DNA from: Oscillospiraceae bacterium
Lineage (GTDB): Bacteria > Bacillota > Clostridia > Oscillospirales > Ruminococcaceae
Assembly: GCA_017460835.1 (NCBI GenBank)
Contig: JAFUAD010000036.1
Coordinates: 1-38,033 of the forward strand
Length of the DNA stretch: 38,033 nucleotides
Direction of reading: 5' to 3'
In this document: in pieces, positions 5,630 to 35,053 of the stretch
How positions within the stretch are numbered: position 1 is the first letter of the stretch
How the letters are laid out: every line of letters starts with the position of its first letter
The notes under the pieces: generated by a model
What the model saw: the letters and a program-made list of their open reading frames with translations, nothing else
What the model was told of the DNA's origin: nothing
Database searches by the model: none
Position numbers and translations under genes: made by a program

Positions 5630-6524
5630 ACTGGAAATCAGACATCTGACAAAGGTATACGGTTCATTCCGGGCGCTTTCGGATGTGAGCTTTACGCTGG
5701 AGCCGGGCGTGACCGGGCTCCTCGGCGCAAACGGCGCGGGGAAATCGACGCTGATGAAGCTCATGACCGATCATATGAAGCGCACAGAGGGTGAGATTCT
5801 CTGGAATGACACCGATATTTTGAAAATGGGCGCAAAATGGCGTGCGCTGATCGGCTATACGCCGCAGCTTCCGGGCGTTTACGACGACTTCTCCGCAAAG
5901 CGCTTTCTGTATTACATGGGTGCGCTGAAGGGCATGAAGCGGCGGGATATCCGCGAGCAGACCGATGAAATGCTGCAAGCGGTCAATCTCTCGGACAACG
6001 CACACAAGAAGATCGGGACATTCTCCGGCGGAATGCGGCAGCGCGTGCTGCTGGCATCGAGTATGCTCGGCAGGCCGCAGGTGCTGATTCTCGATGAGCC
6101 GACCGCCGGTCTTGACCCGGAGGAGCGCATCCGCATCCGCAATGACATCGCGGAGCTCGCAAGAGACCGCATTGTGCTGCTCGCGACGCATGTTGTCAGC
6201 GATATCGCCTGTATCGCAAAGCGCGTGCTGCTGCTGCGCCGCGGCGAGCAGATCGCCTTCGAGACCCCGCAGGCGCTCCTTGCGGACGCAGAGGGGAAGA
6301 TCGGGGAATTCTCCGGAACCTACGAGGAGATCCGGGCGCTTCAGGCACAGTATCCCGGCGGCGAGCTGGCACAGCATAAGGAGGAGTTTGTGCTCCGGGT
6401 CGCGGGCGATCCGCTGCCGGAGGGCTGCCGCCCCGTTACGGATGCCCTGACGCTGGAGGATGTCTGTCATTTATACTTAAAAGGAGACAGGAAATATGGC
6501 GGAGCTGAGAAGACTGCTGATTAG
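5619..6524 (+). CDS. ABC transporter ATP-binding protein
   Basis: A 301-residue ATPase of the ABC-2/drug-export type. The Walker A is GANGAGKST (36-44), a Q-loop follows near 83, the signature is FSGGM (135-139) and Walker B is VLILDE (155-160). An H-loop follows in ATHVVSD. The C-terminal portion of about 85 residues is typical of CcmA/BcrA-like ATPases. ATG 5619 follows AGGAGGG and lies within the last codons of paralogue 3. The 3' end overlaps the permease gene by 29 nt, so the two are surely co-produced. It ends in TAG, which shows TAG is a normal stop in this organism. The substrate is unknown. Export of a peptide, lipid or antibiotic is likely by family. Confidence 0.9.
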   Translation: MPNKLEIRHLTKVYGSFRALSDVSFTLEPGVTGLLGANGAGKSTLMKLMTDHMKRTEGEILWNDTDILKMGAKWRALIGYTPQLPGVYDDFSAKRFLYYMGALKGMKRRDIREQTDEMLQAVNLSDNAHKKIGTFSGGMRQRVLLASSMLGRPQVLILDEPTAGLDPEERIRIRNDIAELARDRIVLLATHVVSDIACIAKRVLLLRRGEQIAFETPQALLADAEGKIGEFSGTYEEIRALQAQYPGGELAQHKEEFVLRVAGDPLPEGCRPVTDALTLEDVCHLYLKGDRKYGGAEKTAD

Positions 6525-28399: not shown

Positions 28400-28662
28400 C
28401 ATGCATAGTTGTAGAGATAGAAACTCATTCTTCTCCGAGTGGTTTCAGCAGTGCTGCTACATCGAGGATTGTCACGAGTCCGTCGCTGTCACAGTCCGGC
28501 TCGGCATCCAGAATCCTGCCGATCTGACCGTCCGTCAGCGAGGTGTCCTCTGCGACAAATCTCGCCAGCAGAACCGCATCTGCGATCGTGACCTCGCCGT
28601 CGCCGTTGCAGTCGCCATTGAGCGGGCTGAGCGGTTCGGCTGTTGTGGCGGATTCCAAAAAC

Positions 28663-28702
28663 AAAAAAGGCGGGCGCTCCTCGGTTAAACCGAAGAACGC
28701 CC
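28663..28702 (-). terminator. Terminator-like hairpin inside the dockerin remnant
   Basis: On the minus strand, CGGGCGTTCTTCGGTT-type sequence folds back on AACCGAGGAGCGCCCG and is followed by CCTTTTTTG. The stem is GC-rich and the T-run long. It lies in frame upstream of the dockerin module. Confidence 0.75.
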
Positions 28703-28741
28703 GTCCGTTCTTTGAGATATTCAGTTTTTGCAAATAGGCAC

Positions 28742-28781
28742 AAAAAAAGCGCCCCTCGATTTATTTACCGAGGAACGCTTT
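28742..28781 (-). terminator. Second terminator-like hairpin, related to the first
   Basis: On the minus strand, AAAGCG...CCTCG (28781-28769) pairs with CGAGG...GCGCTTT (28758-28746), followed by a run of seven T. Sequence and shape resemble the hairpin 79 bp downstream, so one is likely a duplicate of the other. Confidence 0.8.
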
Positions 28782-29040
28782 ACAGGATATTCTCTTTTGC
28801 AGCCATTGTCCCAATCTGTCTGCTTTTCTGCACAGATGCAGGATCGTGACCGTTTCTATGCCTGTATCCGCAAATGCATAATCGCCGATTTCGGTGAGCC
28901 CCTCCGGCAGCGTGACAAATGTCAGCACGGAAGCCCCATTGAACGCATTTTTGACGATCGACGTGACGCCGCTTTCCACCTCGAGTTCAAAAATCTCCGG
29001 GATGAACTCGCTCCACGGTGCAATCTCCGCGCCGTTTGAT

Positions 29041-32824: not shown

Positions 32825-34399
32825 ATGAAAAAGCGATTCATTCTGTTGACGGCGGCGGTGATGCTATGCTCTGCGGCGGTTCCGGTTTATGCAGCGGATG
32901 CCGACGCGCCTGCTGCGGAGACGGCATTCCCGACAGCACAGGAAATTGTCGATGACATTGTGATCGGCTGGAATCTCGGAAATGTGCTGGAGAGTCATTA
33001 CGATGTGTATTCGGATGACCCGTATGTCTATGAGCAGGGCTACGGGAACCCGATCACCACACAGAAAATGATTCAGGATGTGCATGCGGCGGGCTTTAAT
33101 GCCATCCGCATTCCGGTCACATGGATGCAGAAGCTCGACGAACATGACAACATCAGTGAGGCGTGGATGAACCGTGTGCAGGAGGTCGTGGACTGGGCAT
33201 ATGATGACGGGATGTATGTCATTCTGAATGTGCATCACGACACGCATGCCGATAATGGATGGCTCAAGGCAAATTATGATTCATGGAACACCTATCAGGG
33301 GCGGTTTGCGTCGATCTGGGCGCAGATCAGCGAGCGCTTCGCCGATTACGACTATCACCTGATCTTCGAGGGATTCAATGAGATCAGCGGAAACGGGACG
33401 GATCCGAACGGGAACCGGGCGCAGGTCTGGTATTTCTGGGAGGACTGGCAGAATGCGGAGCGCGAGGAATGCCTCGATGTGACCGCAAAATACAATCAGC
33501 TTTTTGTGGATACGGTGCGTGCTTCCGGCGGCAATAATGCGGAGCGCACACTGCTGTGTAATACATTCGGCGCAAGCGGAGATTCCTCGGTGATCCGTGA
33601 TTTCAAGCTGCCGGATGACACAGCGCAAGACCGCCTGATTACCGGAGCGCATCTCTATATGCCGTACTACTTTGCGGCAATGGATCAACCGGACACCAAA
33701 ACCTACAGCTCGGCCGAGCTGCAAAAGGTGTTCGACGTTTTCGATTATTACATCGACGGACCGGTGGTGATCGGAGAGTTCAATGCGACCTATAAGGACA
33801 ATGACGAGGAGCGGAACCGCTGGGCAAAGGAATACATGACGATCACAAGGGAAAAGGGGTATAAATGCTTTGTCTGGGATACCAATGCGACCCCGATGGG
33901 GCTGTATCAGCGACAGTCCGGTACATGGTTCTTCCCGGAATATGCGCAGACAATGCTGGAGGCTGCGGGTGCTGAATCTGTTTCTCTGACACCGTATCCG
34001 GATTTTTCCGGTAATCCCAATCTTGCCGCTGACCCCTATGTCTGGACGTCGTGGGCAAACCGCACCGGCATGGCGTATGTCTCCGGTTATACCGATTCCT
34101 CTGCCACGCTCAGGGTTGTGGACAGCGGCGAGCTGGAAAATGATGTAATGCTCAATTACGGCGGAGGAGATGCCATTGTCCCCTTTGAGGAAGGTAAGGA
34201 ATACCGCGTGTCGTTTGACATTGCCTGTGAGGGCATCGGCGAAATCACGGATGCCTCGGTGAATATCGGCTATACGGCTGCGGATTATACGCGGGATATC
34301 ATTGACTGTAAAGAAACGCTTCGCATCACGCCGGATTCTGCGCATTACGAATTCCTGTATTCGCCCTCAGAAACGCACGACCGCACACTGTACTTCTAG
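32825..34399 (+). CDS. Secreted GH5 endoglucanase with CBM-like domain, ending at a premature TAG
   Basis: The frame before the TAG encodes 524 residues. A signal peptide (1-23, cleavage near VYA-AD) leads to a GH5 catalytic domain (about 35-382) with GWNLGN (48-53), HH (137-138), acid/base E186 in FEGFNE and nucleophile E318 in VIGEFN. This resembles GH5 endoglucanases of the subfamily 4 type. A CBM4/9-like beta-sandwich begins near 390 and is cut by TAG (34397-34399) near its last strands, at a place where relatives have FQLG. The same frame continues without interruption for 217 more codons encoding the end of this CBM, a dockerin and another CBM. ATG 32825 follows AAGGGGGG. As written, the enzyme would be secreted but not docked to the cellulosome. 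Confidence 0.88.
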   Translation: MKKRFILLTAAVMLCSAAVPVYAADADAPAAETAFPTAQEIVDDIVIGWNLGNVLESHYDVYSDDPYVYEQGYGNPITTQKMIQDVHAAGFNAIRIPVTWMQKLDEHDNISEAWMNRVQEVVDWAYDDGMYVILNVHHDTHADNGWLKANYDSWNTYQGRFASIWAQISERFADYDYHLIFEGFNEISGNGTDPNGNRAQVWYFWEDWQNAEREECLDVTAKYNQLFVDTVRASGGNNAERTLLCNTFGASGDSSVIRDFKLPDDTAQDRLITGAHLYMPYYFAAMDQPDTKTYSSAELQKVFDVFDYYIDGPVVIGEFNATYKDNDEERNRWAKEYMTITREKGYKCFVWDTNATPMGLYQRQSGTWFFPEYAQTMLEAAGAESVSLTPYPDFSGNPNLAADPYVWTSWANRTGMAYVSGYTDSSATLRVVDSGELENDVMLNYGGGDAIVPFEEGKEYRVSFDIACEGIGEITDASVNIGYTAADYTRDIIDCKETLRITPDSAHYEFLYSPSETHDRTLYF

Positions 34400-35053
34400 C
34401 TGCACGGCGGTGAGCATGACGCCTATACGGTTACTGTCTCGAATCTCGAAATCTATGATACGGCAAATCTGCCGGAGCCGGAGCTGCTGCTTGGTGATGT
34501 GAACGGTGACGGCGCTGTTACGATTGCCGATGCGGTACTGCTGCAAAAATGGCTGATCTGCGAACCGGATGCGGTGCTTCCTGCATGGAAAAATGCTGAC
34601 ATGGATGAAAACGGCACACTGAATGCCGCCGATCTGACATGGCTGAAGCGGGTGCTGCTCTGGGCGGACTGGCGCTTCTATAATCAGGGGCTCGACAACT
34701 CCTTCTATATGCTCGGCAGCGATGCATTCCGGGCAGAGATTCGCGAGATCGGCGCCGAGCACTGGTATGCGCAGGTCTATAAGACCGGGCTGCATCTGGA
34801 AGCCGGCAAAACCTACCGGCTGACCTTCACCGCAGCGGCGGATGCCGCGCGCAAAATGGATGCCTGCATTCAGCAGGATTTCGGCGACTATAAAATGTAC
34901 CTCTACAAGGTCTATACGCTCACCGCAGAGCCGCAGACCATAACCGTTGAGGTGACCATGACAGAGGACTGCGAAAACGGAAAATTTTTATTCGATCTCG
35001 GGCATGAGACCGGAAGCTATTATTTCTATGATATCAGCTTTGAAGCGCTGTAA
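34400..35053 (+). pseudogene. Continuation of the GH5 gene after TAG: CBM end, dockerin and second CBM
   Basis: This is in frame with the GH5 gene and has no start codon of its own. It first completes the CBM (LHGGEHDAYTVTVSNLEIYD). A dockerin at protein positions 557-612 follows, with two calcium-loop segments (GDVNGDGAVTIADAVLLQKW and ADMDENGTLNAADLTWLKRV). A second CBM4/9-like domain (about 613-742) ends in YYFYDISFEAL. Placing the dockerin between two CBMs rather than at the C-terminus is typical of some Ruminococcus enzymes. The reading frame is undamaged apart from the one TAG, so the mutation must be recent or the stop is sometimes read through. A GTG at 34499 with no ribosome site cannot explain separate expression. 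Confidence 0.82.

Follow-up and report, generated by a model that had tools for sequence, protein, structure and literature searches.

The in-frame TAG that interrupts a dockerin-bearing GH5 gene is most simply read as an ordinary stray single-base nonsense change, from a Tyr codon to TAG, with no evolved function. We consider it the most likely explanation, by somewhat better than an even chance, that this TAG reflects an error in the consensus of a draft assembly of metagenome type. The cell itself would then translate the gene into one dockerin-bearing GH5 enzyme. The gene lies in a 38,033-nucleotide stretch of DNA, hereafter the window, from an Oscillospiraceae bacterium (assembly GCA_017460835.1, contig JAFUAD010000036.1, positions 1 to 38,033). 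The original prediction saw here either a very recent nonsense mutation that releases the enzyme from the cellulosome or a partly read-through stop that yields free and docked forms from one gene.

The frame at 32825-35053 on the plus strand comprises 741 sense codons, one in-frame TAG and a terminal TAA at 35051-35053. As originally proposed, codon 525 (34397-34399) is the only in-frame TAG, and the dockerin and second CBM beyond it are undamaged, with Pfam matches to Dockerin_1 and CBM_4_9, respectively. The parts of the gene are as follows:

32825..35053, plus strand: whole interrupted frame, GH5 - CBM - dockerin - CBM (frame reading, Pfam)
33032..33889, plus strand: GH5 catalytic domain, residues 70-355 (Pfam PF00150, E 6.7e-52)
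34163..34411, plus strand: first CBM_4_9-like module, whose match crosses the TAG if the TAG is read as a residue (Pfam)
34397..34399, plus strand: in-frame TAG, codon 525 (frame reading; Tyr in the relative)
34421..34459, plus strand: last strand of the first CBM, model residues 141-153 (AlphaFold model, mean pLDDT 61.7)
34490..34660, plus strand: type I dockerin, past the TAG (PF00404, Dockerin_1, E 5.7e-12)
34724..35002, plus strand: second CBM_4_9 module, past the dockerin (PF02018, E 1.7e-8)

Both PF00150 and PF00404 score above their cut-offs in this one TAG-interrupted frame, as expected of a cellulosomal GH5 enzyme, while the Pfam match to CBM_4_9 upstream of the TAG (residues 448-521) is sub-threshold. 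The frame beyond the TAG is not a product of chance, because its mean codon score, 0.407, is typical of the genome (653 called genes of 300 amino acids or more average 0.368, with a standard deviation of 0.082) and because homology to a relative runs across the site. The first listed start past the TAG is an internal GTG at 34499, inside the start of the dockerin; a product initiated there would have no signal peptide and is therefore unlikely to be made as a separate secreted protein.

The TAG had been placed within the first CBM, and both Pfam scores and an AlphaFold model locate it before the last strand of that module. With the site read as Tyr the module scores 25.4 bits, which falls to 18.2 bits when the sequence is cut at the TAG (cut-off 25.9). 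In the AlphaFold model (m675d38ffc3cd), which was built with two sequences only and is of moderate confidence, the site residue closes strand 129-133 and one further strand, 141-153, follows. A protein terminated at the TAG would, according to this model, carry a CBM without its last strand. Since the stop lies inside the CBM, the short product would not be a clean free enzyme, and the clean release of the enzyme that had been envisaged is not supported by either line of evidence. Had the stop evolved to free the catalytic part, a position in a linker would be expected; in this moderate-confidence model it sits inside the first CBM rather than between independently folding modules. A search of solved structures with the CBM alignment was uninformative, with one match at E 0.83.

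GH5 matches were present in all 30 of the genus genomes searched, and a close ortholog was present in one only, Ruminococcus sp. UBA4350, on contig DGSY01000039.1, the sole relative contig found in contig scans. Residues 6-374 of the two copies are 75% identical and residues 372-524 are 74% identical, compared with 45% for the next best match. The ortholog codes for Tyr at the TAG position, within RTLYFYLHGG. Thus the Gln that had been anticipated (FQLG, with CAG changed to TAG) does not agree with the one close ortholog, which reads FYLHGG, and the conservation of the stop that readthrough would predict is not seen in that ortholog. The ortholog has a lesion of its own, a 2-base deletion near the end of the catalytic part (approximately position 2957 of locus L036), upstream of the site, and its 3.5-kb contig stops before any dockerin. 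Because of this deletion and the early contig end, the UBA4350 copy serves neither as proof of a healthy gene nor as an example of damage accumulated after the site. Comparison of the window copy with UBA4350 gave a dN of 0.14 and a dS of 1.3 for the GH5 part, and a dN of 0.13 and a dS of 1.7 for the 24 codons past the TAG. The low dN relative to dS indicates that the protein has been under selection since the lineages split; these values are silent on the time since the TAG arose.

In-frame stops were surveyed in 101 stretches totaling 1,909,162 bases, or 64% of the window's 2.98 Mb genome, using our own dicodon Viterbi gene caller, which may read through stops at a penalty cost. The survey called 1685 genes, ending in TAA (667), TGA (835), TAG (60) or no stop (123). 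TAG therefore terminates 60 of 1562 stop-ended genes, and within the window it ends a gene at 6522-6524 and two further called genes, in keeping with the original prediction that TAG is a normal terminator here and that global recoding is unlikely. Low-penalty lists flagged 132 stops (64 TAA, 58 TGA, and 10 TAG). Most of these were judged by eye to be gene-gene junctions or gene ends, with L195 set aside as a junction on its translation and L196 on Pfam, and five were followed by homology; a decayed LRR-dockerin gene of the window (TAA) and some weak extensions were excluded from the five. Five of approximately 1685 genes thus have one in-frame stop at a codon that is sense in their relatives; four of these stops are TAG and one is TGA, the residues in relatives being Tyr, Lys, Gln, Trp or Gly. 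The GH5 gene and prfB were known before the survey and hence are not independent finds.

The only prfB found in the genome (G000:C71:279-1421, L189) carries one TAG, at 1173, in a frame that is otherwise intact, and its product would stop after residue 298 of the 380-codon frame. This position is Lys in all nine relatives inspected (loci returned by the genus search). A prfB above the family cut-off was found in 28 of the 30 genus genomes, and the internal stop occurs in the window's genome but in none of the 27 others. Well-studied bacteria cannot live without release factor 2, and we take the prfB of this genome to be a gene that cannot be lost. Given that presumed essentiality, and with more called genes ending in TGA than in any other stop, the TAG is either an erroneous base or read through. 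Assembly error leads as the explanation of the GH5 stop because a lesion of this type also sits in the only prfB found in that assembly.

The remaining three cases differ in character. A deaminase-like gene on contig C5 (L173 7269-7685, minus strand) has a TAG where six of six relatives have Gln; it also lacks approximately 77 internal residues, among them the HAE and PCxxC motifs seen in relatives, and remains in frame. An LRR-dockerin gene on contig C48 (G000:C48:55696; L180 15696, minus strand) has a TAG soon after the signal peptide, followed by a 748-codon frame. Of 12 relatives inspected from 13 loci (L269 was omitted), five, including the closest, have Trp at this site; a different residue is aligned with it in six, and one is unaligned there. 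This gene answers the suggestion that other dockerin genes be searched for in-frame TAGs, as the one that was found. Finally, a GmrSD_N-HNH gene on contig C36 (L220 17502) has a single TGA where both relatives compared, from two of five loci, have Gly.

Several observations favor a consensus error. The GH5 frame continues immediately past the TAG with both flanks intact, and the codon is Tyr in the one close ortholog. Four more genes in this assembly, including prfB, are similarly hit, so that lesions of this kind occur in five genes, one of which is presumably essential. The genome is assembled in 103 contigs and is 88% complete. If the five stops are random, the 1.68 Mb of coding sequence should hold approximately 145-188 single-base changes, or 0.9-1.1e-4 per base. 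In contig C58 (L113), 5969 bases duplicate part of C53 (L208), which points to redundancy or mixed strains in the assembly. The two copies show a single mismatch, 47 bases from an end of C58; the implied rate is of the same order as this mismatch, which as one event is weak evidence and possibly a strain variant. Passages of Cooley and Wright (2024, PMC11017572) describe many internal-stop pseudogenes in public genomes as assembly artefacts and low-quality reads as chiefly adding internal stops. Other observations run against a consensus error. At 3.6 kb from the end of the contig, the site is outside any terminal stretch; the deaminase-like gene on C5 resembles real decay; the window's LRR-dockerin gene is truly decayed, and hence real lesions occur here; and intact downstream frames would be expected equally under TAG suppression. 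In a control genome (G009; 400 kb, 365 genes called at high penalty) we saw no convincing in-frame stop among 36 flagged (20 TAA and 16 TGA), all judged by eye only. This control does not separate the two genomes, because approximately one case would be expected at the rate of the window's genome (P(zero) 0.34). The frame-break detector found nothing in either genome and is probably insensitive, having missed a frameshift on contig C97 even though the first 20 kb of that contig were included.

A real and recent nonsense mutation is a serious contender, if rather less probable than an erroneous base. Such a mutation would leave a GH5 domain and a CBM that has lost its last strand, without the dockerin, and the gene would be a young pseudogene or one under relaxed selection. 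The undamaged sequence past the TAG is consistent with this, as is the state of the only close ortholog, which is broken too, as if the gene were dispensable; that deletion lies in a short MAG contig and may itself be an error. The other dockerin genes of the genome also bear on this reading. There are at least 113 dockerin matches in the genome (150 of 193 candidates scored), and 12 with short or shortish frames were inspected for damage. A second dockerin gene of the window, at 28425-29036 on the minus strand, survives as an LRR_5-dockerin remnant whose middle is degraded and whose frame is interrupted by a TAA at 28761, and an LRR-dockerin gene on C97 (L109 1462-3937, minus strand) has an apparent frameshift, seen by eye, just before the dockerin. 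The broken dockerin genes seen are therefore the GH5 gene (TAG), the C48 LRR gene (TAG), the window LRR gene (TAA and decay) and the C97 LRR gene (frameshift). That the others are broken by differing lesions is compatible with a recent mutation in the GH5 gene, and the mixture fits decay or error rather than an amber switch common to these genes. The main difficulty for a real mutation is that the sole prfB found is interrupted in a similar way, and a genuine nonsense change in that gene should kill the cell. We infer that the base is wrong rather than freshly mutated. The recent nonsense mutation of the original prediction thus stands as a possibility, without the clean freeing of the enzyme attached to it, as the stop is inside the CBM.

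It is unlikely that TAG is leaky throughout the genome, through a suppressor tRNA or weak termination, such that the stops in prfB and the dockerin genes are tolerated and both short and docked forms are made. What suggests it is that TAG is the stop in four of the five interrupted genes, among them prfB and two dockerin genes, in a genome in which so few genes end in TAG, and that convincing cases make up 4 of the 10 flagged TAG compared to 1 of 58 TGA and 0 of 64 TAA. We do not take the latter ratio as a bias, because by eye the TAA and TGA flags are mostly ordinary gene ends, which is consistent with the far greater use of these codons as terminators. Codon usage in the called genes predicts that random single-base stops would be TAG in 57-64% of cases, and the probability of at least four TAG in five is 0.29-0.41. 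Four of five is therefore no amber excess over other stops of the kind that suppression would predict. An impression that all convincing stops were TAG was dropped in view of this expectation and of the TGA case, which relatives confirmed.

The check for an amber-suppressor tRNA that had been suggested gave no CUA anticodon among the 41 tRNAs typed by ARAGORN, of 42 matches in the 88% complete assembly. The typed set is without Asn-GTT and Ile-GAT, which indicates that the assembly is incomplete, and the absence of CUA is therefore no proof. A weak 100-base match to the tRNA model (G000:C46:10196-10295; L108 297-396; 30.1 bits) lies directly past a terminator-like hairpin. It was considered as a suppressor tRNA and rejected, being untyped by ARAGORN, with no Rfam match at E <= 0.01 and no CTA on either strand, and we treat it as a chance match. 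The RF1 frame is full at 360 residues, and one of the five stops is TGA; both argue against leaky TAG codons.

Gene-specific programmed readthrough, which would deliver the enzyme in free and docked forms at a fixed ratio and would account for the intact parts and the immediately continuing frame, is very improbable, as the stop lies inside a CBM and not in a linker, conservation cannot be shown with one close ortholog that lacks the stop, the other broken dockerin genes show mixed lesions, and no precedent was found in the literature searched. The partial readthrough of the original prediction accordingly finds no support in the typed tRNAs, in the frequency of TAG among the stops, or in the one close ortholog.

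If the TAG is an artefact or a fresh mutation, its meaning is one of caution only: a lone in-frame stop should be weighed against the rest of a draft assembly before regulation is inferred from it. If the TAG were truly leaky, one gene could supply both the cellulosome and a pool of free enzyme. In amber suppression and stop-codon readthrough, intact coding sequence lies on both sides of an in-frame TAG. The GH5 gene has this appearance, but differs in that no suppressor tRNA, no TAG excess and no conservation of the stop were found. A literature search returned no dockerin or cellulosome gene with an in-frame or premature stop codon or with readthrough. The closest enzymes in architecture are the GH5 enzymes of Ruminococcus flavefaciens FD-1 (PMC2930009), likewise secreted GH5 proteins with a CBM and a dockerin from a dockerin-rich Ruminococcus. 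Passages of that paper list proteins with modules past the dockerin; a GH5-CBM-Doc-CBM arrangement with an internal TAG is not among them, and a term search of the main text of the R. flavefaciens FD-1 papers gave no mention of a stop codon, frameshift or pseudogene. In the passages on spurious internal-stop pseudogenes (PMC11017572) the likeness is one of isolated in-frame stops in intact genes of a fragmented assembly, one of them here presumably essential; the difference is that in the present case we infer the wrong base.
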